31,818 nt of DNA from Fragilaria crotonensis (taxonomy: Eukaryota > Bacillariophyta > Fragilariophyceae > Fragilariales > Fragilariaceae): the NCBI GenBank assembly GCA_022925895.1, contig JAKSYS010000704.1:1-31818 (forward strand). The letters are read 5' to 3'. The position numbers and the translations under genes are program-made. Below, piece after piece: positions 5,423 through 31,818 of this stretch; positions within the stretch are counted from its first letter, which is position 1; each line of letters starts with the position of its first letter. The notes beneath the pieces were generated by a model. That model was not told where the DNA came from. It ran no database searches and was given only the letters and a program-made list of their open reading frames with translations.

Positions 5423-5616
5423 ATCATTGTTGATTTATCTTCACCAGCAGAAAAGGCAGATAAGGCTTTTGATTTATCATCACCAGCAAAGAGAGGGGCT
5501 GGTGTATCCATGAATCTGGATGAAAATGTGACAATCAATTTAATGTCGCCAGATGCAAAGCCTCTGCTGCATTAAGGGAAACTGTTGATGACAATGAAAT
5601 CAATTTCATGTCGCCA
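5423..5616 (+). other. Four repeated hydrophobic-Asp/Asn-Leu/Phe-Ser-Pro motifs (SUMO-interaction-like)
   Basis: Reading in the coding frame (with one shift near 5570) gives IIVDLSSP (5423-5446), FDLSSP (5468-5485), INLMSP (5534-5551) and EINFMSP (5599-5616), spaced about 15-22 residues apart in an acidic linker. The shape, two or three aliphatic residues followed by D/N-L-S next to acidic residues, resembles SUMO-interacting motifs of the I/V-D-L-T/S type. It sits directly after a Ulp1-like protease, which makes such a role plausible. It is an inference from pattern only; they may equally be phosphorylatable Ser-Pro repeats. Confidence 0.45.
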
Positions 5617-7671: not shown

Positions 7672-7693
7672 ATTAAGTATAACATTTATTTTA

Positions 7694-10539: not shown

Positions 10540-10559
10540 GTTTTGAGAGTGATTGAATT

Positions 10560-12450: not shown

Positions 12451-12547
12451 ACATATTTTGTCATTTGTTCCCCAATTTACGATGTTTTTGTAATATTGTT
12501 TGTCACTTTAAACGCAAAAGTACAGAACGTTTTGTTTTCCTCGCCCG

Positions 12548-13502
12548 TTAGTATACTAATCTGTGTTTGTTCTTCAACATTGTTTTGTCTCGGTTCTGTT
12601 GGGAATGGTGTGTTCTCCCAGTGGAAATCCTCCACGCTGACACGCGGTGATTCTCATCAAGGAAGTGCCAACCAGAACTGATATCATGCTCATCACGATA
12701 GACACAATGGCCCGTATGCTCAGTATAAAATCGCTTCACAAAGCTGTCGCTGCCAAACTTGTATGACACCTCACGACCACCACATCACCTCACGTTGCAG
12801 GCGTAGCCAGCTCATGTCATGGGCTATGAATGAGCCCGGCACACCAACATCTCCCCTACGACGCTCCCTATGACAGTAGAACACGCCGCACTGGGGTAAG
12901 AAAAGGATAGCAGCCCTATAACAATAATCCTTCTCAGGTAGAGCATCATCCGGCTGGTACAATCGAAACGGTCGGACCACGTCCCGGATCAACAACAGGT
13001 TGTTTCTTGTGATCAGATGGAGCCCCTGTCACTGCTGCTGATGAAGGCGCCCGGTTCAGAATGACATCCATAATGTAAAATTCATTAAGGAACTCGATTC
13101 AATCCGCTCCGGGAACATGTCGCCCGCCCGTCGTAGCTGGAACGGCTCGCATTGAAAAGCTTTGGCGATCCAACTCATCGGAACGTGGCACAGATTGCTT
13201 TGTTCTGATTTTGCATGCTTCCTTTCATCCTTGCTTGCCCGCCGGAACCGTCGCCTGAAAGCACTCCTCTCCTCAGGAATAACCGCCATCGACAACAGCC
13301 TCATAATCCTCCTATTTGTCGGGAGACTCTCCCGCTCGTTGCGCTTTGCTGGGAGTTGTTTCTTTGCATCCTTCTTCTCGTCCACAACATGCAATCCTGG
13401 CACTCGCGGTGTCTTCCCCAAATTTAGCACCGACGTCTTGCACGGAGAAGTCTTATTGCCCATGCCCGCGACCCTATCACCACCGCGTCGATTATGCGAC
13501 AT
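12548..13502 (-). pseudogene. Gene X of element A, truncated relative of the gene at 28,840-31,369
   Basis: Two in-line frames belong together. The first (13502-13056, 148 codons, ATG start) is a basic protein start with SWIAKAFQCEPFQLRRAGDM near its end. The second (12995-12771) contains YRAAILFLPQCGVFYCHRER and ends in a WLRLQ block. This matches the plus gene of element B, which has YRACIVLLPQAGIFYCHRER and WLRLQ at 30075-30201, with a similar W(I/V)-x-P-(E/D) block upstream. After about 12790 the similarity stops, so the C-terminal half present in B, including the oxygenase-like domain, is missing. A third frame (12769-12548) may be residual coding sequence. Function is unknown. The start lies 35 bases from the tandem array at 13537, and the gene runs divergently from gene Y at 15099. 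Confidence 0.6.
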
Positions 13503-13536
13503 CGGGCCCTCCCTTGCTTTCTGGCAAGTAAAGGCC

Positions 13537-14229
13537 GCACGATGTCAGTTCAGTTCCTCGCAACGACCACCACTGGTGGCAATGCGAGCGCGTCTTCGAC
13601 AACTCAATGGCAACTCTCCCTGCTTTCTGGCGGGAATGAGCCTCTGATCGTCGAATTGGCGAGAACGATCCGACAGCAACGGTGACAATCGCGATGCAAA
13701 TGAATGCACGATGTCACTTCTGTTCCTCGCAACGACCACCACTGGTGGGAATGCGAGCGCGTCTTCGACAACTCAATGGCAACTTTCCCTGCTTTCTGGC
13801 GGGGAATGAGCCTCTGATCGTCGAATTGGCGAGGAGAACGAGGATCCGACAGCAATGGTGACAATCGCGAAGCAAACGAATGCACGATGTCAGTTAAGTT
13901 CCTCGCAACGATTCCCACTGGTGGGAATGCGGCGCGTCTTCGACAACTCAATGGCAACTCTCTGCTTTCTGGCGGGAATGAGCCTCTGATCGTCGAATTG
14001 GCGAGGAGAACGAGGATCCGACAGCAATGGTGACAATCGCGAAGCAAACGAATGCACGATGTCAGTTAAGTTCCTCGCAACGATTCCCACTGGTGGGAAT
14101 GCGAGCGCGTCTTCGACAACTCAATGGCAACTCTCCCTGCTTTCTGGCGGGGAATGAGCCTCTGATCGTCGAATTGGCGAGGAGAACGAGGATCCGACAG
14201 CAATGGTGACAATCGCGAAGCAAACGAAT
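13537..14229. repeat. Tandem array, four units of 169-176 bp
   Basis: Units begin at GCACGATGTCA at 13537, 13706, 13882 and 14054, and a fifth start at 14230 is immediately replaced by a hairpin. Unit lengths of 169, 176, 172 and 176 are not multiples of three and indels shift the frame, so this is not a coding repeat even though it keeps long frames open on both strands. Units 3 and 4 carry ATTCCCAC and GTGGGAAT as 8-base inverted arms around TG. The array lies directly upstream of gene X of element A (start 13502, minus), the same position as the array before gene X of element B. Confidence 0.9.
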
Positions 14230-14258
14230 GCACAATTGCTTCTGAGAAGCAATTGTGC
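14230..14258. repeat. Perfect 14-bp-arm palindrome at the edge of the tandem array
   Basis: GCACAATTGCTTCT, a single G, then AGAAGCAATTGTGC. The first four bases also continue the array unit (GCAC), so the array breaks off exactly into the palindrome. An extra CAATTGC follows. It could be a hairpin or cruciform and may mark the recombination end of the array. Confidence 0.85.
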
Positions 14259-14261
14259 AAT

Positions 14262-15098
14262 TGCTTGTGGTGTCAAGTATTGACAACAGGAACACATAAC
14301 GCACGAAAAGGGATCAGTTTACTATGCAAAAAAGAGGCGATTCTGCACCTGGGACTTGAGTACAGGAACTCAAACTACTTAGGAAATGCTTGTATATGTT
14401 GTGTATAACCACATGACGTATATAAGTATACAAATATGTAATTTATACTAAACTAATTAACTATGTACATGTATGCCATATTGCTGTCATGGGAAATGAC
14501 TAAAAAATTGTACGCACAGTTTCTACTACATGGTACGTAGCAGTTAGAAATCAATTTTTTATGATTCTTATATAACTACAATAACTCTCTATGTAAATCT
14601 GATTTTTCGTCGATACAAACTCTGAAGTAGTATGAACTACTATTAATAGTTGTGTATACTGAACATAATAATGTATCTAAGTAAAACAAATAGTGGTAAA
14701 AATAGACTCTTATATATATATATATATATGCAATGCTACGTGGTTGCGGTACAAACAATGAAACGAATGCAGGAATGCGGGAATGTCAACAACAGATACG
14801 ACTAAACATAACGTATGACTTACGCCGTAACGGAAAACTCAGCTGTTGAGTACTGACCATCAACCTGCATTCAAACACAACACATGATACATCTTACGCA
14901 TGTATGTTGATTTGTACTATAAAAAAATATGTTTTAATCATGTGACGGTATATATTAAACAAACATGGCGAACTGCTTCGCATTCAAAAATCCCTATCTG
15001 ATTCAAAACGCATGATGTAGCATACACGAATCCTACGAATTGTTGCCTTTCTCACACTTCCTTTTTCACACTTGCTTGTAGTTAAAGATACATGCATC
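14262..15098. other. AT-rich spacer between divergent genes X and Y of element A
   Basis: Very AT-rich, with a TA microsatellite at 14710-14729 and no supported gene. Together with the array it separates the divergent starts at 13502 and 15099. Element B has an AT-rich spacer at 27120-28180 in the same relative position. Confidence 0.6.
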
Positions 15099-16797
15099 AT
15101 GGCCAGAGGAGCAGCCAAAGCAGCTTCTTGGACATCACCACGCAAGAAGCAGGCACGCACCCGTAAAGGCGGAGCTGCACAACTACAGCAGCATGTAACG
15201 AAAGGCGGAGGATCAAAGACTACGAAAACGACAAATAACAAACGAAAGAAGGTAAATGAAAGTGCTGCTGCTGCAAATCATAAGCGTACAAAAACAACGA
15301 ATGATCCGGATGGTGACAAGGGCAAACCTGATGGTGACGAATCCGATGCTGTCGAAGTGTGACCACCAAGAACAAAAACGTGTTGCTGGTGCTGGTAAGA
15401 AGAGAAGTCAATTAAACCAAGAAAATCGGTGGTACAGAAGTTGATACTCGATGACATTGAAAGCACATCCGAATCAGAGGAGTATGTTGACGAGGAGAAC
15501 GATGACAAGGAGGATGATGAAGAGGAGGTGTATGAGGATGCTGTGCAGGACGAATCAAGTGATGACGACGGGGACAGAAGGAACCCGCCAACAACAACGA
15601 CGCTGAAAATAAGGAAAAGCATGGCTGGTCGTCAACTTCATCAGATGAGGATGACAGCAGGGACGTCGACAGAGATACAATGGGTATCGAAGGGAAATGG
15701 AGGACGAGGCAGAAGCCGCAGCAATGAGGGCTGAGGCTCGTCGGGGAGTTGAACCGCAGTACCCAACAAGGTGCAGTGGATCCTCCAAACAATTCAAATC
15801 CTAATGTCATGTTGCCGTCACGTCAGATTATTGATGTTGGCATTTCGGTTCGTGGCTTGTCAAAGGCTGAATCTATTCAGAAGCAAGAGAAGCATGTGGC
15901 AGATCGTGTTACTCAATTTGTTAAATCAGATGTATTCCGCCGAATCAAGTTCATTAATAACGACGCAATGTTCCAAAGAGCATTCCAGTTGGTGATGAAT
16001 CATGAAAAAGTGGAGCCTAACAAGCGTGTAAGTTTTCAAATGCTGTACGAAAGTTGTTTTAATCATGCATTGAATACGAAGAGGAGTTCGTGCGAACAAA
16101 CAGGTGGGGCACTTGCAAGGAAAGCAATCGCCGAGTTCAAACAACGTGGAGAAGAGTTTTACAGTTTTGACGAATTCTGTAAGCTCAGGAGAGCAACAAC
16201 AGAAAGAGAGAAGAATGCATTCTTCTGGTTCTTTGACACGTTCTTGGAATGTGTATGCGGGGCAAGGCAGTGGAGAAATGCAAAGAAGACCACGTTGGTG
16301 TCAAAAGCCGCAGATGGGCGTGGTGGAAAACTTGTAACTAAAAGTGATGAAGCGTTTGGTTTGTTGCTCATCGATAATTATATGGAAAAGTGGGTTACCG
16401 TTCTGGCAGAGGAGGAAAAGGCACGCGCTAATGAAGTTGCTAACAATCATGACGTCGACAATACAGCGAGACAGGTGGGAACCAACGGCAACAGGCAAAA
16501 GAAGAAGGCGGCGGCAAAATCCCAGGAAGGTATACAGCAAAAAAATGGGCACTGCAAGTATGGTGGGTGGAGCCGTGATGGAACTGCACGTTTCAATGAA
16601 CTATACAATCTTGTTCAAGACGACCGAGCAAGCGCGCAATCGGAACAAATGGAAAGGAGTTGATGGCATTTTGCAGGGCTCAGGCGGGAATAGATGACAA
16701 CAATGCACAACACGAACAGGAGGGTCATGGTAACAACAATGCGGCGGAAGGAACTGAAGCACTGCCGGTCGAGGCAGCATGGGACTTGGACGACTAA
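15099..16797 (+). pseudogene. Gene Y of element A, conserved transposon-associated protein, frame-broken
   Basis: It starts at ATG 15099 with a basic, Gly/Ala/Lys-rich N-terminus, passes through a Ser/Asp/Glu-rich acidic stretch (15429-15560), and has its main frame at 15749-16663 (304 codons). The last shift near 16660 restores a tail ending PVEAAWDLDD at 16797. Shared with gene Y of element B are, in order: a block with VKSDVFRRIKFINND; TKSDEAFGLLLIDNYMEKW; and GGWSRDGTARFNELYNLVQD. B has VKEDVFPKQKFANLNGD, LTDEAFLLLCLESYVPKW and WSKDGLERFNGLMVDVYRDR at matching positions. I do not know its function. It is probably nuclear given the basic start, and may be a DNA-binding accessory or regulator of the transposon. 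Breaks lie near 15360, 15600-15740 and 16660. Confidence 0.65.
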
Positions 16798-16799
16798 GC

Positions 16800-17750
16800 A
16801 AATGGACTTGAGAGACTAGTTTAAACATTTCTTCTAGCACTACGATGAGCCAATATGCAAAGAAAATAGCTGTATACTATTTGTAGAATGAAATGCTTAC
16901 AGGATACAACGTCTGGTGAAAAAGCAACATCTGTTTGGTTACTGAACAACAAATTAATGAACAAAAATTGCAAGGAGCAACCATAAAACAGTGATCAAGA
17001 CAAACAAATATAGTTGCTCAAAAGGTCATATCTAGCCAAATATGTTGATTTGTAACATTAGATTGTGATTAAATTGGTGAAAGACAACATTTTATGGTTT
17101 TATCAACAAAATTGGTCATAGTAACCATTTATAGTTGAGATGTTACAGATCGGAGGTCATTACTCGGTAACTCTTACCAAGTAAAAATAAAGTAAACATT
17201 TTGCACCTTCTGATGTATGGCTCACCAGGCATGCATCATTCGGTTGCGCTGGGTTGCTCAATGACCTAATCATGTGTCCTCACCATTGTTGGAGTTGATG
17301 GTTGACGACCAGATCATCATTCACAGAATTCGTGGAGGAAAGCACTAGTTATACCATCTGAAGCTGCAGGAAATTTTCCACACACTCAAGAGTTGTCATC
17401 AAAGGCATCCAACTACCATTAAAGAGCCCAAAATTGTTCCTACACAGCTTTGCTGATGTTTTAAGTTGATCTTCCAACTTCTGCTGCGCAGTTGTTGTGC
17501 CACTTTTCTCATTTTTTCTTCATCATCCGTGGACTCTTGCTGGTAGAACTTTAGTTGTCAGAACTTTCATCCTCCTAATTGTAGTCACTGCCCAATGATT
17601 CTATATAATTGTCATCATCATCAGATTTTTCCCAGACAACATAGCATTGCTTCGTGGTCCATACAATAATGTACTGCTCCCCTTCCCTTCTGAACTTAAC
17701 TTAAGTCACTATTCAATCAAATTTGTACACAGTATATCAAAAGATATGAA
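16800..17750. other. CpG-poor stretch downstream of gene Y (element A)
   Basis: About a dozen CpG in 900 bases, AT-rich, no open frame worth naming. The minus strand has short acidic and basic fragments (around 17580-17400) that could be remnants of coding sequence. A CpG-poor block also lies downstream of gene Y in element B (24.0-25.27 kb). Confidence 0.4.
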
Positions 17751-18346
17751 TTCTGAACCCACCTCTCATAGTGCTTCTGTCAAAAATTTCGAAAAAAACA
17801 ATCGTTCATATACTCAATAAAATGAATGCGCTATCAGTCGTCCCAGAAGTCATTACAATTCATTTTTACCAATGCAGCCAATAAGTGGTCGTTGTTAATC
17901 GTAATCAGACACGAGCCTGACATTCCCACATTACGAGGCTGCCTGGTACTCGTATGTGCGAGAAGGCAGGCCGACTGAACAGACAGACAGACAACCTCCA
18001 GGAAGAATGAGTTCTCACGTTCTCACATACTCCGAACGAATTCGACCAAGACAACGACTACATACCGGTAGAGATAGAAAGTTAAATTCCCACCCACCAC
18101 CCAGGGATAGGGAAGGAAAGAGAGATTATGAAGCGTCAAGGGGAATGAATTTATGTGTAGAAATTCTGTTAACAATACAAATATGCGATACCTGGTATTA
18201 TACGTCAGAAACGCCAAAAGTCCGGAATAAGTCCGGAATAGTAGCAGTCCGAGTACTTGGTATGGACTATGGGCTACTGCAAACGTGGGTGGCATACCAC
18301 TATGTACGTCATCTTGGTTCTATGCTGCATTCTTTTCTATGCCTAT
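17750..18346. other. Intergenic stretch
   Basis: Plus (17956-18348) and minus (18295-18023) frames overlap fully and neither looks like a real protein. I see no gene, RNA or repeat. Confidence 0.4.
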
Positions 18347-18843
18347 GAGGCTATGAGAAATGAGAAGGTGGAGGCCATCCGCGCTTCGACGTCACGCACA
18401 TTATCGTTGTACTTATGAGAATAATGATGGCTTGTCACAACTCACTACTCACAACACTTCAAGAGGACATAGTATCATGATTCATAATAATGTGTCACTC
18501 TCCACGTGACACTAAGAGGCTATGAGAAGGTGGAGGCCATCCGCGCTTCGACTTCACGCACATTACCAGATCGTTGTACATGTACATATGAGAATCATGA
18601 TGGATGATGGCTTGTCACAACTCACAACTCACAACACTTCAAGAGGACATAATATCATGATTCATGTGTCACTCCACGTGACTCTAAGAGGCTATGAGAA
18701 GGTGGAGGCCATCCGCGCTTCGACGTCACGCACATTACCAGATCGTTGTACAAGTACATACGAGAATAATGATGGCTTGTCACAACTCACAACTCACAAC
18801 ACTTCAAGAGGACATCATATCATGATCACTCTCCGTGACACTC
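18347..18843 (+). repeat. Tandem array, three units of about 170 bp, upstream of a small gene
   Basis: Units start with GAGGCTATGAGAA at 18347, 18516 and 18688. Units 1 and 3 contain CGACGTCA (18387-18394 and 18721-18728), the reverse of a CRE-like TGACGTCG; unit 2 has one substitution (CGACTTCA). The end of unit 1 has GTGTCAC and GTGACAC arms (18492-18512) around a CACGTG-containing centre, and unit 2 keeps CACGTG. The array ends about 130 bases before the ATG at 18975, so a promoter role is likely. Confidence 0.9.
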
Positions 18844-18853
18844 ATATTCTCCA

Positions 18854-18937
18854 TACTGTAGTACTGTAGTACTGTAGTACTGTAGTACCTCACAAGGACC
18901 TCAAATGGGGTTCGAAGTTCGAAGTTCGAAGTTCGAA
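18854..18937. repeat. Two short tandem repeats: 8-bp TACTGTAG and 7-bp TTCGAAG
   Basis: TACTGTAG is repeated about four times (18854-18888). After a 22-base gap TTCGAAG is repeated nearly four times (18911-18937). Both are built of palindromic cores (GTAC, TTCGAA) and lie 40-120 bases before the ATG at 18975. Confidence 0.85.
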
Positions 18938-18974
18938 TCATCACGCAACAAAAGCGATTAGTTTTTGCTCATCA

Positions 18975-19687
18975 ATGACGAAACGAAATCTCGTATCAAC
19001 CTTTTTCAATACAAACGCTAAATTGATTGCAGTCCTCCGCGATGTGCTGAAGTCTCGCGCAAAAGGAAATGCTCTGGACTCTGGAGTACTCGAGTTCTAC
19101 TATCGTAAGCAGGAGTCATTTCCAAAACTGTCGTCTGGCTCTGAAACGTGTGCGTTCATTTCGTTTGTACAGCGGTACGCAGTATATCATCGATCATACA
19201 TTCACCTCAAGCCTACCCAATGACTCCCTCCTCCTTTTGCAGCATATGCTTCCGAAGAATAAACATCTTGTAACGAAGAACGCCTACATATCGACGGCCT
19301 TCTCAGGATCGCGACTGCGTGGTCGGACCCTCCTCTAGGAGAAACAACAGAGACACCAAAGGATTACTCCTGAGCACAATAGACGATTCTCGGCTGTTGC
19401 TCTCGCAGCTTTCAACCGTGACAATCCTACAAAACGGAGCCTCATACGAGACAGGACGGATCACTTTCAAGACTTTCAGTGGTGGGTACGGCGAAATGTC
19501 GGTCGAGATCCTTATGCAGATTGTTGGCTTTCTAAACAAGGCGCTTGAAAAATCTACTAGTATCACCAAGAGAGCATTTTTTGTTTCTTTTGCAAGGATT
19601 CAGTCCTACACCAAACGATTGTTGATAACACAGTCCTCATACAGAAGAACCATTTTTCGAAACATTAACAAAGATGTCTTAAATTGA
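18975..19687 (+). CDS. Unrecognised small gene, probably spliced
   Basis: The ATG at 18975 opens 82 codons (MTKRNLVSTFFNTNAKLIAV onward) that stop at 19223. A strong 3' splice-site-like run, CTCCCTCCTCCTTTTGCAG, ends at 19242, and a donor-like GTATAT near 19191 is in phase with it. A second open frame, 19274-19687, carries STVTILQNGASYETGRITFK and a basic helical C-terminus. Joining the two needs one further intron or a one-base shift near 19300 that I could not settle. No domain is recognised. It is convergent with the HSF-type gene (144 bases between stops) and lies downstream of the 170-bp array. This stretch is CpG-rich, like the HSF gene and unlike the decayed blocks. Confidence 0.4.
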
Positions 19688-19830
19688 GTTATTTGGTAAA
19701 TCATCGCATCATTTCCTGTGGCGATGTTGAGAAACGTTCAATTTGAGCTGGCTTTGAATAATAGAATATGTATTCAGGATTCTTATATCGCCACGACCGT
19801 GCTGCTGTGAAGTGGGTTTTGCAAAGCGAG

Positions 19831-20949
19831 TCAATGGTCACCACTGACGCTCGCACAACTTCCTAGTTGGCGCGGTTTCTTCTTGATGCGCCGCATGCCA
19901 CTGGAAAGAGCGGGATTATCGCGAATGAAAAGCTCGTGTCTGTATAGGCCCCTGGCAAACCCCTTCCCTCCGACACGTTTAAAATTATAGAGGTTGAGCT
20001 GCCTCTGAAAACTTGCGAAACATTTCATCTTGGGAAAGAAGGTTGGAAGAATGGTTTCTTCAAAGAAGGTCTGGTTCTTGATTTGGAAGGTCCTACCGTC
20101 GGGAAGAAATTCAGCAATGTCCGCGTGGCGGCCGTTGAATTCCAACTCAGCGAGGGCTCGATGAAGTACCATAGGAAACGTTTCGGAGCCACCGATAACT
20201 GGAATCTGATCTTCCTCGTGCTGTGAGAATGGTCTTGCGCGCTCTGCCGCCTGTGCAGCGGATAAGAGTGCGCTTGTTGAGACAGAGGATGGTGCGGCCT
20301 GAAGGTCATGCTTTTCGTTGTCGTCGGAAATAGTCGATGGTGACCTGAAAGGAACATCAACGTGCAACTGCACATGCTGCCTGTTATTTGCTTCCCCCAG
20401 ACATTGGGATATTTGCCTCCTTGCGAGCATGGCGGATGCCTCAAGGAAGTGAACACGCTTTTGCAAATCGAGCTCCTGTTGTCTCGAATGCGATGAGCGA
20501 GTAAAACCGGCATTTGATTCGCGGCGAGACCTTGGCCTCCATACAGCATTGCCAATGTCCCTGACATAGCGATTTCATTCATAGCATCCGCATGCATCCT
20601 GGCGTAGGATTGGATGCTTCCAACGTCAATGTTTCGTTGCTGTTGATCGTGATCAGTGTTAGAATTTTGCAATACTAGTGTGTGACCTGACTCAACATGC
20701 GGCAATGACCCGGAGACGTACCTGACGACGTTCATCTCTGCTATTAAACGGCGCTTCTGTTGTCCTTATGGACGATGGGTGAGTTCCATTGGCCGCAGCA
20801 CTAAGGTACATCATATCAAACTGTGTGTTCGGATTCGCGCCCCGAGGGAATCTGTTGGATAATGCCTCAGTCAATTGTGACACGGTCTCGAGAGAAGGAG
20901 ACTGAAACGAGCGAGAATGCAACTCATGGCCGACGACGCGCGGCACCAT
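19831..20949 (-). CDS. HSF-type DNA-binding domain transcription factor, three exons
   Basis: Exons are 20949-20722, 20639-20545 and 20482-19831, giving 324 residues. Intron 1 (82 nt) has an ideal donor, CAG|GTACGT, a CTAAC branch-like site and CAACAG|. Intron 2 (62 nt, GTATGG to CGAG|) is less certain but restores the frame and a heptad-like helix, LQQELDLQKRVHFLEAS. The DNA-binding domain is C-terminal (about residues 200-310): FPMVLHRALAELEFNGR, LPDGRTFQI, FFEETILPTFFPKMKCFASF, QRQLNLYNFKRVGG and YRHELFIRD. Heat-shock factors bind GAA/TTC units, and this family is greatly expanded in diatoms. Oddities: Asn replaces the usual Gly in LNLYGF, the usual Trp before LPDG is absent, and the domain lies at the end. 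The frame is open upstream to 21060, so an earlier exon is possible (MPMPRRTPSDEDSGEAQ at about 21173). Confidence 0.8.
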
Positions 20950-21590
20950 CGCATCCCGATTGGTGCTTTCTCGCGCCTCGCATATGATTCTCTGACTGAG
21001 ACAGGGAACAGGATCGACAAGTAAGCCGTCGCTGTGTAAGGTGCATAAGGCCCTTGGTTGTTATCGCGGATGTTTGATCCATGTTGATTGCCTCGCTTGT
21101 TGCAATGCTCAATTGTCGAGGTTTGCGCTTCACCTGAGTCCTCATCGGAAGGAGTTCTTCTGGGCATTGGCATATTGACGCAATGGGAGTTATGAGGTGG
21201 TCGTTGGTTTGAAACAGCTGCTTCTTCCCTTGCTGGTAGAGTACGAGCACTCAAGTGTAGTTTTGTTGCTGTTTTGGACTGAAACTGAAACTGTTCGGGA
21301 TGAACTCTCGCGTGCGATAGAAGAATTTTCACGGAGTAGAAATAGAGATTGTTTAGGGACGAAAATTCCCAAAACATGTTGCGTACTTCGCATTGAGAAC
21401 AATCTCATAATACGAATGCGCATAATTAAGCAATATCGAATTTTGGGTTCGCATCCATGTTCATCGACTGACGCAGCCGTTCCCACCCGTTCTGATGTGC
21501 TCCTGTCCTCCTTGGAGACGTGTAGGGACTCCGGGTTCCCGCATGAGCGTTATAAGTTGACGTAACACGGCGCATTTTTTTCGCCTATGT
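20950..21590. other. 5' region of the HSF-type gene
   Basis: It probably holds the promoter and perhaps a first exon. Minus frames starting at 21377 and 21486 are open and CpG-rich (for example MGTAASVDEHGCEPKI and MPMPRRTPSDEDSGEAQ), but I cannot fix the splicing. A plus frame, 21197-21565, overlaps them and is probably a shadow. Confidence 0.4.
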
Positions 21591-21599
21591 GCCTATAAA
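21558..21599 (+). promoter_or_regulatory. CRE-like site and TATA box of an interrupted plus-strand unit
   Basis: TGACGTAA at 21558-21565 is followed 36 bases later by TATAAA at 21594-21599, and an ATG lies 72 bases after the TATA at 21671. The same pair of motifs (TATAAA and TGACGTC), in the other order, occurs in the array at 28.2-28.7 kb. Confidence 0.45.
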
Positions 21600-21670
21600 G
21601 TGCCGATTCAGCGATCGGATTCTGAGTTTTGCAGTTTTGCCGTTGTGCCCCAACACTTTTTGCTGATAAA

Positions 21671-21702
21671 ATGATCAAATCTCTCGTCCGACCAGCCCAC
21701 AG
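21671..21702 (+). pseudogene. Short ORF start interrupted by the hAT-like element
   Basis: MIKSLVRPAH starts behind a TATA box and runs straight into the left end of the element at 21703. Removing the element and one 8-bp duplication joins this frame to the bases after 23566, giving a 32-codon frame ending at TGA 23631-23633. Whether this is a gene, a first exon or chance is open; no family is recognised. Confidence 0.35.
21695..21702. repeat. Target site duplication, left copy
   Basis: GCCCACAG immediately precedes the left terminal repeat; an identical octamer follows the right terminus. Confidence 0.85.
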
Positions 21703-22126
21703 CAGGCTGTGTTATTTTGGGAGCTTTTTCTTATTTCTTATTTTGGGAATTTGTTCCCAATTGAACATTTAAAAGTTCCCGATTTAAACCGTGTAGAATA
21801 CGTAGGATTCAGTAGAGATCAACTGGCCATCGCCCGAATCTTTGTCGGACTGGCGTCGTACTGGAGGTTCCGGAATTTTTACCTTTAAGTGTATACTAGT
21901 GGCTACGTATACAGTACTAATTCTATAACGTTCATCACGCCGGACAAATATTCCACGTTCCATCACCCCTTCAAATGTCCGGATCATTAGGTACATTAAT
22001 TGCATGACGTGACAAATTTTGAGCTTTAAGTAAAGAACTTGAGCTTAGACTTTGCGACAATGGAATCGACGTCTTATGAAATCCTACTTAAGGATATAAG
22101 ACATCTGAAGTGTCGGCAGCCGTTGT

Positions 22127-22186
22127 CTCAAGAGCCGCTGGCTCAAGAGCCATTGGCTCAAGAGCCGCTGGCTCAAGAGCCAACGG
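22127..22186 (+). repeat. 15-bp minisatellite, four units
   Basis: Units of the form CTCAAGAGCCGCTGG, each holding GGCTC and GAGCC arms around AA. It lies in an open frame (22039-22320), where it would read Gln-Glu-Pro-Leu-Ala repeats, but nothing else supports that ORF. Confidence 0.85.
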
Positions 22187-22411
22187 CTGAACAACAGCCC
22201 CCGACGAAGTCAAACTCAAGAACACACTTTTTTGTGTGTCATAGAGCTTGTCATTTGCTTGATGTATTCTCTTCATACTTGAATATTGTTTCGCCGATGC
22301 TTACAGAAAATGCTATATAGCAACCATAGATGACCTGTCATTTCTTTCTTTCCCCGTTTGGCGAGTTCTCATTTAAGGAAAACACGTTCCTCGACTAGTT
22401 CGACGAAGTAA

Positions 22412-22503
22412 ACTGGCTCTTGAGCCAGTGGCTCAGAGCCAATGACTCAAGAGCCAATGACTCAACAGCCTCTGGCTCAAGAGCCAATGGCTCAAGAGCC
22501 AAC
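22412..22503 (+). repeat. Second cluster of the same 15-bp minisatellite
   Basis: About six more or less degenerate units. It begins with an 18-base palindrome, ACTGGCTC-TT-GAGCCAGT (22412-22429), in which the unit is met by its own reverse copy. It lies 226 bases from the first cluster. Confidence 0.85.
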
Positions 22504-23118
22504 GTCTTTTCCAAATATCCCTACATAGTACTAGGGTTCATCCAAGACATTGAATCGATGTCGTACTTGTCATAACAAACGATGTTAACAAAGTTCCAAA
22601 ACTTAAGCACGGTTTTTATTATTGTGGTTCAACAGAAGACATTCTATCATTTTGAAACGTGGAATTATTTAGGTGTTCGTCGAACATATTTCTGGTAGAT
22701 AATCTGCCGCGTGAAAGGTATGAGACACATAAAAGAGCCGAAATTCCGGAACCTCCTGGACTCGGTCATAGTAGCACTGAATTACTGTATTACTGTATGA
22801 TATCATCGATGTACTGACGATCCACGTAACAACAAAACAAACAAAAAAACCTCGAAATCTAAATTAACGTGCTGCCGCGATATTCGGCGGTACAAATACT
22901 CGACTCGCACGGGTAGCCACAACTCTGGAGGAATTGCAGGTACCGAGAATAGTTGTCCCAGTGGTTTCCCCTTGCAACTAAGCGGACGGTATGGTGTTAA
23001 AGTATGATCGTATAGATCGCACGCCCGTGAGTGCTCGCGTTTTCACTCTTTTTCACTCTCTGCAATGGTGGACGCATGCATCAGAATCCAATTCTTCGTA
23101 ACGTGTATGGGATGTTTA

Positions 23119-23497
23119 TCATGTGCTTCTGGTGTTTCCAACAAGAGGTCCTGGACTCTTGGTTCCATCATCCCACGTTGGGAGTATAGTTCTGTGAGTT
23201 GTCTCCTTACTTCTTATTGTTCCGCAACGGCTGACCTCATCTTTACCAAAGAGTTCCGAATTTTGACTTAACCATAGCTTGTGCCATTTGTCCCATATTT
23301 TCGATATTAAGTTCACTTGCCATCGTTCCGACATGTATTGTTGCGTTGGATACTGCATCTCGTGATACCGTACTTGCACCTTGCTCCACTCCTTCGCAAA
23401 TCTCCCTAGCCATGACGATCCACGTAACAATCACGTAGGCCTCACACTGTACTGTGTACTGTATGTTCCCAATTAAAGTTACCAAAATAAGTTTCAA
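23119..23497 (-). CDS. Coding-like fragment inside the hAT-like element, unrecognised
   Basis: A minus frame at 23497-23243 contains SNATIHVGTMASELNIENMG and a frame at 23430-23119 contains EVSRCGTIRSKETTHRTILP. They could be one protein with a shift near 23260. No motif of a known transposase is visible, and it may be chance. Confidence 0.2.
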
Positions 23498-23558
23498 AAA
23501 TGTCCCGAAATAAGCTATTTTGGTGTTTTGGGGAACTTTCCAACTATAACACAGCCTG

Positions 23559-23566
23559 GCCCACAG
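23559..23566. repeat. Target site duplication, right copy
   Basis: GCCCACAG, identical to 21695-21702. Confidence 0.85.
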
Positions 23567-23571
23567 TACTA

Positions 23572-23729
23572 GTAGTACCGGTACTACAAAAGGACTGTGT
23601 ACGAAGAATTTCTACGTAGAAACGCTTAGTTGATTTGGCGCCTACAAGTATAGTACTTATTATTCTATGCCTGTGGCAAGATAAAATAGTAAACATGCTC
23701 TAATCTAGTCTACTAGAGACTCTAGTAGA
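23572..23729. repeat. Cluster of three perfect palindromes
   Basis: GTAGTACCGGTACTAC (23572-23587), TTTCTACGTAGAAA (23609-23622), and TCTACTAGAG-A-CTCTAGTAGA (23709-23729), within 160 bases just right of the hAT-like element. All use CTAC/GTAG/TACT words, like the palindrome at 11044. Confidence 0.85.
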
Positions 23730-24000
23730 ACGAGTACCGGTAGCTAGTTGTCTACCCATCTGGTCCCTATGTCCCTTAACCCCAGTATTTTTGCCGCATG
23801 GCATGCAACAAAACTTATCCCGATTTCTGGGCGACCCCAAAATATTTGTCCTACGAAAAAGCTAGCGAGAATTTTAGTGCGACAAATGTTTTTCAGTGAT
23901 TCTTGTCGATTGCAACAACTGAAGGCTACTTGTTGTCGCTTGAAGGTATCAGAGCCCAGTTGTGCACCCATCACGTGCCTTATTTAACCCCATAAAAATA
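23730..24000. other. Intergenic stretch
   Basis: Frames at 23748-23987 (plus) and 23974-23744 (minus) mirror each other, and neither has recognisable features. Confidence 0.3.
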
Positions 24001-25270
24001 TGAAATTGTATTGCTGTTGTATACTCAAAAATACTCTTCTTGACACTGACAAAATTAGATTGAACTCCTCAGATTATACAAATAAATCATCAAGAAGTGC
24101 AGCATTGCAATCTAGATGTTCCAATTTGCTCCCTTTGTTGATTCCAGTAACAAAATCAAAGGAATGCTACTTTTGCACTCAGAATGCATTCTTGAAAGTC
24201 CAACTAGGTAGCCCCAAAGTGCAGAAGAAATGGAAAAATAGTGAAACAGTCACCATTTTGTGAGACCTCATCATTTAAAAATGAAACAATGATGTTCATA
24301 TTGCATCTGTGGCTACTCAATAGCAGAGATTGCATGGATCCCACTCTCATTAGCCTCTGCTTGAGCAACAATGATGTGAGCATCATTTCTGCCACATTTA
24401 AGCCTTATTGGATTTGCAGATCATGAGGTGTGGTCCATGTGATGTCATGGTCAACAATGCAGGACAAAAACAATCATATACTTTTTAGCTTGAGATTCTG
24501 TTTATAACTCAATTTCAAACAAGAATATTGAGCAATTGCGCACAATTGCCTATTAAATCATGCAACCTTTCAGTGTTAGGTCGTGTTCAAGGAGATAGGC
24601 CAAGTCTGGAGTCCACCAGACATGTCCAAGTTAAGGAGGCATACTATCAAATGTTGGCAAATATAGGGTTCTTCATTGCTGAAGACTTTTCATATGTGAG
24701 AACATAATAAATCTGAATCTGGATTTTAACAATCGAGTTTTAGGTTGCATTTTTGGCATGCTACTTAATGTGATAGCTCATGACCATGCAAACCCCAGAC
24801 CCTCCTGTTCCCAGGCAAGATCTCTTGCAATACTACAAACAAAGAAAAATCTTAATTGTGAGCAAGGAAGCAACTCATTCCCATACTGGTGCTGTGCTGG
24901 GCGTTGCTTGTTGAGATGATTGTTGATAGTGAAGTTGCTTGTTGAACTTAAACGGCCATGGATTACAAATTCCATGTGTGTAACAAAATGCACTAAAAAA
25001 GAACTGTCAATGTCCCAAGCTCTGGATTCACGATAAAGAAGTCCAAGAAGAAGTCAGCAAATTGGTGCCTCGCTTCCAGTGCAGATCACAGGCTGAAATA
25101 ATTCAATTCAACTCTTGGAATTCCAGAACAAGATTGCATAACATGAAGTGTGACACAGATCATGATCTAAGTTTCATTGCATGTATGAGGAGTGCTCTCA
25201 AGCATGCATTGACAGAGCATCACAGCACATTTGTCATCATGCATCATCAGGAAGCCCATTTCTGTGATTT
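24001..25270. other. Strongly CpG-depleted block
   Basis: I count only 7 CpG in 1,270 bases and none from 24001 to 24538, while TG and CA are common. This contrasts with the HSF gene, which has up to six per 60 bases. Open frames are short and mostly not recognisable (minus 24993-24778 is the most protein-like). The best explanation is an old mobile element eroded by methylation-driven C to T change; an alternative is foreign DNA of different composition. Confidence 0.6.
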
Positions 25271-25547
25271 CTAAATATTTATTTATATTTCATTCTAATT
25301 ATTTCTTTGGTTTTTTGAGACAGATTCTGTTCTCTTTACTTAGAAAGTTATAAGTATTAATTTACAAAATTGACATCTTTATATAGAAATGTTGTGGATA
25401 TTTATGTACAAATACTTTGGACAAATTGGTCGCAGCTAATATTTTCAATTTATTCCATGAGAAATTTATTCCGCGAGTTTTAGGGGAGGTGTGTAGAAAC
25501 GGTTTGGTATATTTATTGTACGGTTGATTTTCATACCATTACTCTGC
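25271..25547. other. AT-rich spacer
   Basis: Short AT-rich stretch between the CpG-poor block and the 3' end of gene Y of element B. It may hold the element's terminus; I found no inverted repeat. Confidence 0.3.
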
Positions 25548-27117
25548 TCACTTCTTCTGTATGACTATCATCATCATCATCATCATACCTTGTTCTTGCT
25601 GCCCTCCTCTTGTTGCTTCTCTACCGGCGCCAACAGCACTGGCAGCTGTGGCATGAGCCATAAGCTGTTCCATGTTGAAGTCACTGTAGACTACAACAAC
25701 ACGATTTTCAGGATTTGCTTGATCATCTTCTCCCCTCGTGCTGGATTTGCGCTGTCATTTTGTTTGCCATACCTTTTGATCATCTCCTCTCTGAAAATGT
25801 TGTCAAAGTTGGCCCCATTTGCCTGTCGGTCCCGATAAACATCAACCATAAGCCCATTGAATCGCTCTAATCCATCCTTTGACCAGCTGCGCTTTGTTCC
25901 TCGGCTTCTCCTGTGTACAATGCGTCTTCACCGTCGCCTTCTTTTTGCTCTCCTTCTTGTTGCCGTTCTGCTGCTGCTGCTGCTATCGGACACGAGAACT
26001 TTGAGCCCATTCGATTCCACTTCGGTACATACGACTCTAGGCACAACAGTAGAAATGCCTCGTCTGTCAGTGTAAACCATTCACTCAATGGTTTAGTCAT
26101 CCTGTTATCAACGTACACTTTACGTCCAACCACTGCCCTCGCAAGACAATCCAACAACTCTACATATGCTGGCCTTGATGGGAGACTTCTCATTCCCATG
26201 ATGCTCCATAAGCGGAATTCGGTTTGTTACAGCTAGTATATTATCTGTGGTAATATCAGCCAGAGAAGAGTAGGGTGTTAGAAGAAATAGTGCATTGCCA
26301 GCATGATGTCACAGAAATCAGTCGCCACCATCTCACCGTTGAATTTTGTTTTTATTGTTTTGATCACATTGTTCCTATGGTTTTTCAGTTTCTTATGGAC
26401 AGCTTTCTTCGAACTCTCCCACCAACCTTCCACATCCGCTTCCTGAACTTTCATTTTTTCCGCCATGAATCTGCAGATGGAATTACGGTTGTTGCTGAAG
26501 TCAAGATCACCATTCAAATTTGCAAACTTCTGCTTGGGAAACACATCCTCTTTCACACACTTCTCAAGCAACCAATCTTTTCCCACATTTGTCAGTCTGT
26601 TCCCATATTGCATGACCCTTCGTGAACTTGTCGCCCGTCTGTTGCTGGAGCATGAATGGGAGCTGCAACAGCAGGTTCATCATAAGCAGGGTCGTCTTCT
26701 CCATCATCATCCTCCTCCTCACTTCCGTCTGTGTCGGCAAACAATCTTCGCATCATATGAGCATTAGTGGGAGCACTTACATGAGAAGCTGCAGCAAGTC
26801 GTTGACGCGTCCTTCTTCTAGTTGAAGAATCTTCTGTGACATCAGCAGCACGACCGCGACCCTCGACCACCATCATGACAATCAGCAGAATTAGAACCTG
26901 CTTGAAGCGCAAGCATCAGTTGTCGTCGTGTTCGTGTAGCTGGAGAATCTTCAACACTGTTGCCAGCAGCAGCCGCATGATCCGGTGGAGCAGGTGGAGG
27001 AGGTGGAGGAGGCGGAGGCGGAGGACGAGGAGGAGGACCACCTCTAGCTCCTCGACCACTTCTCCCAGCACCTCCACCACGTTGTCGTCGTCCTGCTCGA
27101 CCACGACCTCCTGCCAT
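25548..27117 (-). pseudogene. Gene Y of element B, conserved transposon-associated protein, frame-broken
   Basis: It starts at ATG 27117 with a Gly/Arg-rich N-terminus, then a polyproline tract (residues 28-45, bases 27036-26983), an acidic stretch (SEEEDDDGEDD), and then the conserved core: VKEDVFPKQKFANLNGD (frame 26613-26278), LTDEAFLLLCLESYVPKW (frame 26199-25867) and WSKDGLERFNGLMVDVYRDR (near 25880-25820). The tail ends with six Met from an ATG microsatellite and stops at 25548. Frame changes lie near 26860, 26610, 26240, 25885 and 25740. The three core blocks match gene Y of element A in order and spacing. Function is unknown; an RGG-like and Pro-rich start suggests nucleic-acid or protein contacts. 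It is divergent from gene X at 28840. Confidence 0.65.
25567..25586. repeat. ATC microsatellite
   Basis: About seven ATC units. On the minus strand they code for the Met run at the end of gene Y of element B. Confidence 0.8.
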
Positions 27118-27119
27118 AG

Positions 27120-28180
27120 AGACTACCCTGATCTTTGGGTGTGTTCTTTAAACGCGAGAACAAAAGCCAGCATATGGCAAGATCACTCGGCTGACATGTG
27201 TTCTGTTTTGTTTTCGTGCGAGCACAAGACTTGTTCAATATTTGAAGTCTTGACAAAGTTATTCACATGCGTTTCAAAATCTGCATATCCTTAGGGAAGA
27301 TGATTTACACTGAACGTTACACATAAGTATTCACATTCAATATACTTCTTCAAATGATCAGTTTAAATATGCATGAATATGTAGATGTTTTGAATTTTCG
27401 TTTTGTCATTTGAATATGCATATTATACATATATCCGTATGTATAACATACATTTCGCTAAATGAATCGATATGCGCATACATAATCATATGCGTTGAAT
27501 TAAAATGTGGTTGCATGTTATGCTTATATTCATATATATAACATACATTTCTTGCTAAATGAATTGATATGCGCATATATAATCATATGCATTTAATAAA
27601 AATGTGGTTGTTTGGAATTAATAATGTTCATTATACATTGTATGTAATTCTTGGTATATTAAACAGGTGTTAATGTAGCATACACTCAACATGTACTTTC
27701 TTAGACAAAGTAGCCGTTTACGCGAAGTAGCGAGTCAATTTACCGCTCGCAGTATCGCTATGAACATTCATAGTGTCTATACTGGCGATTCAATGGTATA
27801 AGACGACATCCTAGTAGTACTGAATACTTCGCAGGATGGACAAATTTTCTCAATAAAAACAAGCACCGAAAGTACTGTCACATTCTACATGTGAATCATA
27901 TCAGTAAATATTAGTGTACTTATATGTTCAATTTGCAATTATGCTTAGCATAGTGAAGCTTTGTATGCATTCCTGCTCGCAACGTGATGCACAAGTTTTG
28001 GTATGTTTTCTACAACGAATGTATTGGGCGATTCGGTTGTCTCTTTTTGTCAAATTTTCTCAACTACAACACACTCACTGTTAGGCCTCCTGACCCCGAC
28101 AACCTTGTCACACTCATTGCCTTTCGTATCGCATTGATGTTTTGGAAGCTCCACCATCAACGAGCAACAGATTTTGCAAC
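27120..28180. other. AT-rich spacer between divergent genes Y and X of element B
   Basis: AT-rich with many TATA and ATATGCATAT words and no supported gene. It contains the direct repeat at 27442-27611. It corresponds in position to the spacer at 14262-15098 in element A. Confidence 0.6.
27442..27611 (+). repeat. Direct repeat of about 72-75 bp, period 95 bp
   Basis: Copy 1 is 27442-27513 and copy 2 is 27537-27611. Both run TATAACATACATTT, GCTAAATGAAT, GATATGCGCATA, ATAATCATATGC, AAAATGTGGTTG, with a three-base insertion in copy 2. They contain ATATGCGCATA half-palindromes. Confidence 0.85.
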
Positions 28181-28840
28181 ACTGTCGTTGTCTTGATCCA
28201 CACCGGTCACTGGCTTCCAATTTTGCGTTCAGCTTTGCGTTTACATCTATAAAGCTCAGCTGACGTCGATTTGGTTGTTCACGGCTGGCTGTTGGTGACA
28301 ACGACGACGACAGGTCGTTGCATATTTGTTCTTCGTTGGCTGTCACGTTGCAGAATTCTCGTCGGCGATCGCTCCGCCACTGATAACAGATATTGCGAGA
28401 CTGTCGTCATTGTCTTGATCCACGCCGATTGCTGGCTTCCAATTTCGCGTTCAGCTTTGCGTTTACATCTATAAAGCTCAGCTGACGTCAATTTGGTTGT
28501 TCACGGCTGGCTGTTGGTGACAACGACGACGACAGGTCGTTGCATATTTGTTCTTCGTTGGCTGTCACGTTGCAGAATTCTCGTCGCTCCGCCACTGATA
28601 ACAGATATTGCGAGACTGTCATTGTCTGGATCCACGCCGATTGCTGGCTTCCAATTTCGCGTTCAGCTTTGCGTTTACATCTATAAAGCTCAGCTGACGT
28701 CGATTTGGTTGTTCCTGGCTGGCTGTTGGTTACGACAACGACCGGTCGTGTTCGCGTGTTGCTCGCTGTTGGCTTCCTTGCTCCACCGTTGACGACAAAT
28801 TTTGTGAGGCCCATTCACTTTGATTGGCTCCAGTTGTCTA
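28181..28840 (+). promoter_or_regulatory. Three-copy tandem promoter array with TATA plus CRE-like site in each unit
   Basis: Units begin near 28191, 28413 and 28625 (periods 222 and 212). Each holds TATAAA (28248, 28470, 28682) followed exactly 13 bases later by TGACGTC(G/A) (28261, 28483, 28695). The middle copy is the perfect palindromic CRE, TGACGTCA. The last TATA is 158 bases before the ATG of gene X at 28840. In diatoms, TGACGT-type elements are known to mediate CO2/cAMP responses, so bZIP control is possible. The repeats and spacing are seen; the regulatory role is inferred. Confidence 0.75.
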
Positions 28841-31369
28841 TGATGGCAGAGACTTTGTGCTCAACGACTTCATGTTCGACGTTGACAAAGGAATGGTTTG
28901 AGGATTCATCGTCGGAAGACGAGGCGGAGTTTTCTCAAAACTGCTACCATGTTCGGCTATTCAAGAAGGAAAGACCTCAACTTTGGCAAGAAGGTCTGAT
29001 TCGTTGAGGAAGGACAACGGTATGATGGTTGAGCTCAAAGTTAAAGTGAAGATTGAGTTGAAGGTTGTGTCTACTAAGGCTGTCTTGATGGCAAATGTGA
29101 GTGGTGGATTGAAGAACGCTGGTTCATCGACTAGTGCTGTTGATGATGCTGTGACCACGTTGCCATCTTCATCCCAAAGCACCAAACCACGGCAGAAGAA
29201 AAAAAAGAGTGGGAAGGCGGAAAACAATTGGCGTGAACGCCCAATTCGTGCTCGCCCTCATGGACCATTTCAACGCACTCTGCCAGGTGAGCTCTCCCGT
29301 GCCATTATTTTGGCAAGAGTGAACAATCGACAGACCATTCCGTTGACGGAAAACACCATGTCTGTGCCTATTACCACACTTGGCGGTACCATGGAAGCTG
29401 ATGCCGCTGTCGGCAGCAATTTTCCTGATCAGGGGACAGGGAGAACGAGGAAAGAAGTCAAGGCTGCGAGGAAGATAATCAAGGAAACGAAAGGTTTGGG
29501 GATTGGATTGCTTCGAGAGCATCCATCACTTTCTATGGCAAGTCACACTCAAGTTGCAAATGTAATAGCCAAGTGTCTGCCTTTGCAGTCTGTTGCTCCT
29601 TTCATGGTCATGTTCAACAATTTTCGACCACCTCCTCTCCAAAACGGAAGAAGCAAAAGCGGAAGAAGGGCAACGCCGCGTCTGTTCAATACCACCTGCA
29701 GTTGTGGCGGCGTCAGCTCTAGGTCCATCGGCATTTTGTGACGAGAAGATTTGCAAGACTCCCATCAATTGGGTTGACTCGTCCCTGAAACATGTGTTTG
29801 GTACTGAGTATGTCATGCTCAAGCGCTGCAAACATCCTGATGAAATGTATAGTCATGGGAAAGTCATTCCGATCTCGACCTGATCGTCATGGATTGTGTT
29901 CTCTCGAGAAGTGGTCCTATGGATTTGAAAGGAAAAGGAAAGATGACGCCCATGCCTGTGACAGTCCCGTGCATGTCTGTCTATTTGATGATGTTGATGC
30001 TGTCAATTTGGCAATCGCTGTTAGAGATGAAAATGCTTTTTCTTCTCTTCAGGAAGAATAACAGCGATAACTTCTACCGTGCATGCATTGTCCTCCTTCC
30101 CCAAGCTGGCATATTCTATTGCCACAGGGAGAGGCGCTCACGATCGACTGGGGTCCTTAATTCGCATGTCCCAATGGACATAAACTGGTTACGACTTCAG
30201 CATGATTCTCATGGTAACTTCTTCGGTGATGGATCTTATGTTTCACACCTTGCGAATGCTGATAAGTGTTCCATTTGGAAGTGGACTATTCGGCTCCGCC
30301 ACAAACCTCTTGCCAATTCCCAATGCGATCATGGGGGTGATGCCAAGATCACTTGTGAGATCTATTCACTGCACGAAGCAACTGATGGATGAGGAAGGAC
30401 CTGGACTTCCTCCTGACTATGTTGTGGGTGAGAAGGATGAGTTGTTGAGTGCTGATCATAAGTTTCGAGCTGAGACATTCCAAGATGCGTTCTCGCGATC
30501 AAGGTCAGCCAAACGTGGAGGTCGCCATTATGCACCGGGATTTCTGCACAAGACCATTGACCCGTTAACGACATTTGTTATCAATCCAATCAAATATGGT
30601 GAGCTTGACTTGCACGTTGATGTCACTGTACCCGCAAATGCGGGCGAAGTTGCTTTCCATCGGTGTTCTGTGGTTCAAATCCGGTACCTCCCAAACGTTG
30701 TTGGATCAGGTTGTGAGGACCTTCTGACCGACATCAACAGGCATTGCAACTTGGTGAGAAAACAGAAGAGCAGCACGGGAGCAAGGGCTGGCAATGGAGA
30801 CCTCGGATCAATGCATCCAATTGGAAGCCGCATCACAAAATGCTGGAACAAGGTGCCATATGTGACATCATCAACTGTGGATGCTGCCCCGGTATTGTTG
30901 AAGGCTGTGCAAGCTGCGGCAAAGCTTGCATCAGTGACTATCCCGCTGCCCTCAGAGTGATGCAGGACTTGGAAAATGATTCTGAAATGAAGCATGTTGG
31001 TGGCATGGACGGAGGCATGTGCCGCGTTACGCACAGCATGGACTTGTCAATTAATTTGGCAAATTCAACACATTACGATGTGAACGATGCCAGTCAGGGG
31101 TTTACGATCTGGACTGAAGATCACCCTGGGACAACTGAGGATTGGTACTTTGTCCTTCCGAACATGAAGGGAAATTCCCAGGATCGGATCGGGACTACAA
31201 CGGAATTGCCATCAAATTGTCTGATGGTGTCCTGATTGGATGGGATGGCCGCCTGATCAGGCATGGTACATCCATGACAGGTTCGCGGAGTGGAAATATC
31301 ATAAATGCGTTCTTTGCCCCAAAGACACGGATCATCATGTATGGAATGTCCCAGTTACCGATGGTTTAA
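28840..31369 (+). pseudogene. Gene X of element B, transposon passenger with C-terminal oxygenase-like domain, frame-broken
   Basis: It starts at ATG 28840 (Met-Met-Ala) behind the tandem promoter array. In order: acidic N-terminus; Lys/Arg-rich region with KPRQKKKKSGK (about 29185); conserved TLPGELSRAIILARVNNR; a W-V-D block (29770-29880); a block with FYCHRERR and WLRLQ (30075-30201) shared with gene X of element A; LPPDYVVGEKDELLSADHKF and a long region to 30957; and a domain with THYDVNDASQGFTIWTED and GVLIGWDGRLIRHGTS (30960-31369). Frame changes lie near 28990, 29600, 29885, 30060, 30390, 30958 and 31160. The basic stretch suggests nuclear location. The gene ends 13 bases before the convergent transposase fragment. 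No intact protein is encoded as read. Confidence 0.6.
30960..31369 (+). other. 2-oxoglutarate/Fe(II) oxygenase-like domain (tentative)
   Basis: The sequence has His-Tyr-Asp (codons 31071-31079), a likely HxD iron-binding motif, followed by strand-like segments (FTIWTED, WYFVLPN, GIAIKLSDGVLIGWDGR), and a distal His in RHGTS (31262-31264), 64 residues later. This order fits the double-stranded beta-helix of 2-oxoglutarate oxygenases. The TET/JBP branch of that fold is known to travel with KDZ-type transposons in fungi. One frame change near 31160 splits the domain. The call is by pattern only. Confidence 0.4.
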
Positions 31370-31381
31370 TATTGTTTCTAC

Positions 31382-31818
31382 TTAATTTTGACCATTGATG
31401 GTGTAATCAACCATTGCTGAATCGTAGAACATTGATGCCCATTTGTCCCTATCTGTTACAACAAGGACATCAGAGTCAGCGAGGTCAGGGTTGCTTGGGA
31501 CAAAACACAAGCCAACAATGGCTTCTGAGGAGACAACATGAAACTCCTTCTCGAATGTCCACTCAGTGAACAGGAAGGACTCACGCCCAGTTGGTTTGCC
31601 ACAACATTGAATAATGAGGTCAAACGTGGTGGTTTCAATTCCACCAAGGCAACTGTGGCGTGGTATGCAACTCACAATGCGAGATGGGTACTCCATCTCA
31701 TTTCATCATCTTCATAGCGGATGAGAGCCCAATCATACTAGGAATACCCCTTTCCCTGAAGTTGGGATGACAGCGAACAGAAACCATCTCCTCCTTTGTT
31801 TCAATGTTGTACTTATGG
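31382..31818 (-). pseudogene. C-terminal part of a second transposase, related to the one at 7.7-10.5 kb
   Basis: The frame at 31696-31382 has a TTFDLIIQCCGKPTGRESFL block ending FTEW, and VVTDRDKWASMFYD near its end. The first transposase has RLVVQKGLHTTGIKSVLLTE then W, and RHLWASEF, at matching positions near its own C-terminus. Upstream, beyond a frame change near 31697, the reading YEDDEM continues toward the window edge, where the gene is cut. It is convergent with gene X, as the first transposase is with the Ulp1 gene. Confidence 0.55.

Follow-up and report, generated by a model that had tools for sequence, protein, structure and literature searches.

The 31,818-nucleotide contig JAKSYS010000704.1 of the diatom Fragilaria crotonensis (assembly GCA_022925895.1; hereafter the window) carries two modules, A and B, of a divergent gene pair that we call X and Y. 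The evidence set out below indicates that X and Y are accessory genes of Plavaka-type cut-and-paste DNA transposons (CMCT clade, PlavakaB-like) of approximately 9–10 kb, a reading to which we assign a probability of about 0.9. The gene order of the unit is Y(<-) X(->) (<-)Z, where Z is a convergent transposase that runs towards X. The window is an entire contig (C674) of a 62.1-Mb eukaryotic assembly of 881 contigs; C-numbers denote contigs of this assembly and L-numbers loci fetched from those contigs. One contig bears a plastid-type rbcL gene, as befits a photosynthetic alga.

Linkage of X, Y and a convergent transposase

A first-pass annotation, made from the letters of the window, had described two divergent X/Y modules as copies of a possible undescribed modular transposon. 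The modules themselves were borne out: the X proteins of A and B align with 47% identity over 60 residues (blastp of stop-to-stop window frames, E 1e-14), and both modules share the gene order, the divergence of X and Y, the spacer and a tandem array immediately upstream of X. The two Y proteins gave no direct blastp alignment at E 1e-3 but are connected through Y from other contigs: Y proteins encoded there match the B copy at E values as low as 3e-7, and a genome-wide search with B-type Y recovers A-type Ys at E values as low as 4.7e-7. The view of A and B as two copies of one element had to be given up; they belong instead to two deep transposase lineages, A-type and B-type, with Z proteins that are 21–29% identical where aligned.

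Genome searches returned 151 matches for X, 148 for Y and 116 for Z. The gene loci were entered once each, with presumed haplotigs scored as separate loci, giving 134 X (among the matches listed), 111 Y and 91 Z loci, and neighbours were defined as lying within 8 kb. The proposed search for further X–Y pairs was productive: 71 of the 111 Y loci have an X neighbour, and all 71 pairs are divergent. Approximately 3.8 pairs of any kind would be expected by chance. X likewise lies beside Z at 58 of the 91 Z loci (55 convergent, 2 tandem and 1 divergent), and B-type Z beside X is convergent in 19 of 19 cases. The transposase that had been noted as converging on X in B is indeed present, but it is no mere neighbour and belongs to the unit.

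Termini, target duplications and mobility

Mapping of the ends recovered terminal inverted repeats (TIRs) and target duplications. The TIRs are 13–15 bp long and begin CATCAG; the 13-mer CATCAGAAGGTGC has 60 matches in the genome, versus 1 for its reversed control. Inverted pairs of CATCAGAAGGTGC enclose Z, X and Y in C30 (89655–99539, 9.9 kb), C529 (17653–27776, 10.1 kb) and C85 (19018–28200, 9.2 kb), and all three genes also lie between repeats in C487 (19650–29312). Shorter copies bounded by the same 13-mer measure 5.1 kb in C474 and C487, and 2.5–2.7 kb in C55, C134, C215, C235 and C525. Copies in differing flanks end at the identical base on the Y side. Target duplications of 2 bp and variable sequence (CG, CA, TC, TG, TT, CA, TA, TC, GA and AT) were found at 10 of 10 independent TIR-bounded insertions checked; ten CATCAGAAGGTGC loci represent nine of these, C474 and the first copy in C487 (C487-A) being one insertion, and element B makes the tenth.

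Uninterrupted target sites were also recovered. The flanks of the C30 element (L013/L025), joined with a single TC, run without interruption in 12 loci at 98–100% identity over the first 450 of 500 bases. Because these uninterrupted loci are B-type Y genes, the C30 element was inserted in the Y gene of a B-type element, and the two are nested. For the C85 element one uninterrupted locus was found (C511, 94%), too diverged for a base-by-base reading of the duplication. Between the C30 and C85 elements, which lie in different flanks, identity is 99.5% over 7.9 kb; the whole unit has transposed recently as one. The modular transposon that had been proposed therefore stands, by its TIRs, 2-bp duplications, uninterrupted sites, dispersed copies and fixed gene order, but with three genes rather than two.

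The 2.5–2.7-kb copies, including L031 (C55:204391–206970), constitute a non-autonomous family with the same TIRs. Those in C55 and C134 are 99.4% identical, and the C55 copy contains internal tandem arrays of approximately 170 bp. A TIR pair 22 kb apart was seen in C620. At L064 (C599:12500–22400), a B-type Z is joined to a truncated X and Y of the C160 lineage. Readings as MULE, hAT or Helitron elements were set aside on the 2-bp duplications and the CATCAG TIRs.

The transposase and constraint on the three genes

The Z protein of the C30 element matches the Pfam Plavaka model (PF18759) at 4.3e-6 and 26.6 bits, narrowly passing the cut-off of 26.3. A-type Z follows the CMCT motif order D, D, C(2)C, H(3–4)H, E, with an H(3)H spacing, in the motifs DKT, GDTEGHD, CRxCE, HLVLH and AES; the corresponding motifs of B-type Z are LDGT, DGKQGD, CDCL, HEIKH and PEE, in which C(2)C is not strictly kept. 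From family resemblance we infer the catalytic role of these motifs and the mechanism of Z, which would excise and insert the element, its motif order being that of the CMCT clade. No relatives of Z were found in viral contigs. The earlier suggestion of an undescribed family holds only in part: a known superfamily, Plavaka (PlavakaB), has this kind of transposase, these termini and duplications of this size. X and Y match no known family.

Substitution patterns indicate that all three genes evolve under constraint, best shown for X. The ratio of non-synonymous to synonymous substitution rates (dN/dS) is 0.12–0.23 in six pairs of X (dS near 0.7 in two and above 1.5 in four), 0.22 in one pair of Y (dS 1.7) and 0.13–0.14 in two pairs of Z (dS 2.5 and 0.03).

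Several observations weigh against the assignment. Linkage is incomplete: at the 8-kb limit, 40 of the 111 Y loci lack an X neighbour, and 51 of the 134 X loci are without any A-type partner, be it Y or Z; 19 of these 51 have a B-type Z and 32 are unpaired in the data searched, including the window's own B, whose Z is cut off. Many B-type Z relatives at 33–39% identity, for example element C of the window, are without any X found. The C599 chimera has TIR-like ends with duplications that do not match (TG/TA). In the Z alignment (A2; nine sequences, several of them fragments), two sequences match PF18759 at E<=1 and one passes the cut-off, with C829 Z falling below it and the other seven having no match at E<=1; two B-type Z frames gave no Pfam match at E<=1, and B-type Z has CDC in place of C(2)C near the second D. 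In several of the dN/dS comparisons dS exceeds 1.5, and saturation was reached in two comparisons of Y and one of Z. Family searches with domain and core alignments of X yielded nothing above cut-off (lowest E values: PHROGs 0.082, NCBIfam 0.025, Pfam 0.076, PDB 0.11). When the X domain was compared profile to profile with AlkB and Naegleria Tet, no support emerged: 4 of 60 column shuffles did as well as or better than the real alignment, in a test so insensitive that the positive control, NgTET against AlkB, also reached only 8.6%.

The X loci without a partner, together with the 5.1-kb copies in C474 and C487-A, which hold Y and part of X and no Z, might suggest that X–Y is a separate mobile element that merely landed beside transposases. 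This is very improbable and already largely refuted, as TIR pairs surround all three genes in C30, C529, C85 and the second copy in C487 (C487-B), the 5.1-kb copies correspond to the C30 element with an internal stretch deleted and retain its Z-side end, and the orientation of Z to X is almost constant. We therefore retain X and Y as genes of a three-gene Plavaka-type unit.

Elements A, B and C in the window

Both elements lie near where the first-pass annotation had placed them (12.5–16.8 and 25.5–31.4 kb), but with revised limits: A spans 12407–17215, and B runs from 25245 off the contig end. The features are as follows (arrays by Tandem Repeats Finder; strand given where assigned).

12407..17215: element A, an internal-deletion derivative that lacks Z, the C-terminal part of X and the Z-side TIR
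12407..12588: Z-side subterminal remnant of A, 98.9% identical over 184 columns to positions 257–440 of the C30 element
12586..13502, minus strand: X of A, 3′ truncated, frame broken (tblastn 98.5–100% to L013 X, two frames)
13537..14233: tandem array directly upstream of A's X, 176 bp × 4
15099..16797, plus strand: Y of A, frame broken (tblastn to L013 Y, three frames)
17203..17215, minus strand: Y-side TIR of A, CATCAGAAGGTGC, with a TA duplication at its flank that C474 and C487 show
25245..31818: element B, comprising Y, X and the 3′ part of Z and running past the contig end
25245..25259, plus strand: Y-side TIR of B, CATCAGGAAGCCCAT, with AT flank; inverted repeat at C487:19650, with AT on both sides there
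25534..27117, minus strand: Y of B, frame broken (matches to Y proteins)
28166..28742: tandem array directly upstream of B's X, 222 bp × 2.7
28840..31369, plus strand: X of B, frameshifted, with HYD and RHGTS motifs (tblastn to the open L004 copy; X profile)
31382..31818, minus strand: 3′ end of B's transposase Z, cut by the contig end; the Z frame continues in L062/L063
7694..10303, minus strand: transposase of an older Plavaka-like element, C; 9312–9965 matches PF18759

C474 and C487 are presumed to be haplotigs of the window, at 98–99.6% identity continuing through the flanks. They hold the insertion of element A with both TIRs, and C487 holds element B whole (19650–29312, 9.66 kb). Relative to the full-length C30 element, A joins coordinates 257–440 to 5417–9887 at approximately 98–99% identity. 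The X profile matches A at 12774–13028 and 12551–12784. The X of B aligns with the open copy in L004 in pieces that are 94–100% identical, with one at 74%, in three frames, and window positions 31613–31818 are 96.6–96.7% identical to L062/L063. Adjacent to element A, window positions 11046–12406 and the corresponding 1.2 kb of C474 are unrelated, so one of the copies is rearranged there.

Two features in the earlier description of the modules hold in part. The spacers between X and Y exist, but their AT enrichment is slight (GC 0.383 and 0.371 in 1-kb bins) and comparable to that of positions 24001–25000 outside both elements (0.378). The array beside X is present in A and B but is not general among other members: arrays with a period of at least 20 bp between Y and X are absent from L016, L017 and L022 and weak in L019 and L020. 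A conserved array was accordingly rejected as a defining part of the unit.

The transposase of element C matches PF18759 at 2.3e-7 and 30.8 bits (cut-off 26.3) and groups with B-type Z. The X profile gave no match in the window outside A and B, leaving element C without a recognisable X. Around this minus-strand transposase (window 2723–10600) lie convergent plus-strand frames that are not X; the last of them, DLCVSKALASAL...HAVCIHGGFVYDANE, had no convincing Pfam match and resembles a cysteine protease in its residue pattern.

Elsewhere in the window, a gene with a heat-shock-factor DNA-binding domain (PF00447, 1.9e-14) lies at 19831–20466 on the minus strand, and tandem arrays outside elements A and B occupy 18409–18826 and 22118–22502 (172 bp × 2.4; 15-bp minisatellites). 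A reverse transcriptase was seen on the minus strand at C155:62389–63093, within an open frame of 4,666 codons.

A conserved HxD...H triad in X

X is a large protein, with a longest frame of 1494 codons from stop to stop, long variable tails and a core of 37% mean column identity. Within it, an HxD...H triad is kept in 30 of 30 loci in which all three positions aligned (two X domains searched by tblastn in the window and the fetched loci), a set that includes near-identical copies and loci chosen partly for their long open frames. In the X alignment (A4), the second His stands 62–69 residues after the first, with WDGR before and a Lys after, invariant in 18 of 18 sequences. Motif and spacing suggest an Fe(II)/2-oxoglutarate dioxygenase. 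No relatives of X were found in viral and prokaryote contigs, and searches with Y against Pfam and PDB gave nothing above cut-off.

We consider it close to an even chance that X is a divergent Fe(II)/2-oxoglutarate dioxygenase, TET/JBP-like or AlkB-like, which would modify or demethylate DNA as is thought for the TET/JBP genes borne by fungal transposons. Besides the triad and its constant surroundings, this reading draws on fungi, where the genes of some PlavakaB elements in mushrooms include a TET/JBP dioxygenase and such genes pass between transposon lineages (PMC12730594), and on X itself, which shows a like discordance with its transposase. Against it stands the lack of a profile match in any of the family and profile searches. 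Somewhat more doubtful is that X is a non-enzymatic structural or DNA-binding protein in which the His, Asp and Trp residues stabilise the fold; its size, its variable tails and the failure to find an enzyme family would fit, but strict conservation of a metal-site-like triad in a core of such low mean identity would not.

X and Y would help the element. For X, the favoured possibility, with odds a little below even, is that it acts through the HxD...H domain on DNA or chromatin against silencing; for Y, a role as DNA-binding or regulatory partner is a hypothesis that we hold slightly more tentatively. The fullest version is a more speculative proposal still: X would represent a fast-diverging and so far unrecognised family of DNA-modifying 2-oxoglutarate/Fe(II) dioxygenases which, with Y, lets algal Plavaka elements escape epigenetic silencing, acquired independently of the fungal TET/JBP elements and traded between lineages as a module.

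The history of X differs from that of its transposase

The X tree (19 rows, eight with unassigned Z) contains two clades split with 100/100 support, each of which includes copies linked to B-type Z; grouping the three B-linked X together was rejected (p 4e-60). In the Z tree the A and B types likewise split with 100/100 support, and grouping the Z proteins of C30, C87 and C471 together was rejected (p 1e-209). Since the groups were picked after identities had been seen, the tests are weaker than these p values imply. The Y tree agrees with the Z tree, with long Y branches that make its details unsafe. Since the X tree is discordant with both, X would either have passed from one transposase lineage to the other or have been duplicated in an ancestor and then lost differentially.

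In the second scenario, which we regard as unlikely, an ancestral element held two X paralogues that were later lost differentially, with no exchange. It would account for both X clades being found with both Z types, but no two-X element was seen among the fetched copies, in which no systematic search for one was made, and C599 shows that recombinants of B-type Z with the X and Y of another lineage do arise. Exchange of X between transposase lineages is thus the reading that we prefer.

Comparison with known systems

The closest known system is PlavakaB of fungi, which has duplications of 2 or 3 bp and CATCA..TGATG termini (Kojima, PMC12730594). The inverted pairs of CATCAGAAGGTGC, and CATCAGGAAGCCCAT in element B, have such termini, the 2-bp duplications fall within the 2–3 bp range, the transposase matches PF18759, marginally, and A-type Z shows the D-D-C(2)C-H(3–4)H-E order; some PlavakaB members also have an extra gene that passes between lineages (PMC12730594). 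The elements described here differ in that their host is a photosynthetic alga, that their extra genes X and Y are without recognised relatives, and that B-type Z has diverged beyond the reach of the Pfam model.

A wider set of fungal transposons with TET/JBP genes (Kyakuja, Zisupton, Dileera, Plavaka and others; PMC12730594) shares with the present elements an accessory gene whose product has a distal His beyond an HxD (or HxE) motif, and in some groups an inheritance of that gene discordant with the transposase. X, in contrast, is not recognisable as TET/JBP by sequence and has a conserved partner gene, Y, which is placed divergently to it in a constant arrangement.

CACTA/EnSpm elements, which have the termini CACTA, belong to a common transposase clade with ours and share CA..TG termini. 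The termini found here are CATCAG, not CACTA/CACTG, and the duplications are 2 bp rather than the 3 bp of CACTA/EnSpm (PMC12730594); on these two grounds membership in that group was rejected.

Plavaka transposases outside fungi are on record in the giant repeats of Amoebidium (PMC11244446) and as EnSpm-Plavaka in Auxenochlorella (PMC12633428), in accounts whose excerpts make no mention of X/Y-like genes. More generally, neither X/Y-like accessory genes nor a diatom Plavaka is described in the excerpts of the Plavaka literature consulted. A Plavaka-type transposon is known; new are the two accessory genes, one of them apparently exchanged between lineages. A complete, delimited and recently mobile Plavaka lineage is thereby placed in a photosynthetic alga, with two constrained accessory genes that are unnamed in the databases searched and one of which, X, has a history unlike that of its transposase. 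Should X prove to be a dioxygenase, anti-silencing enzymes carried by transposons would have emerged in a lineage remote from the fungi.

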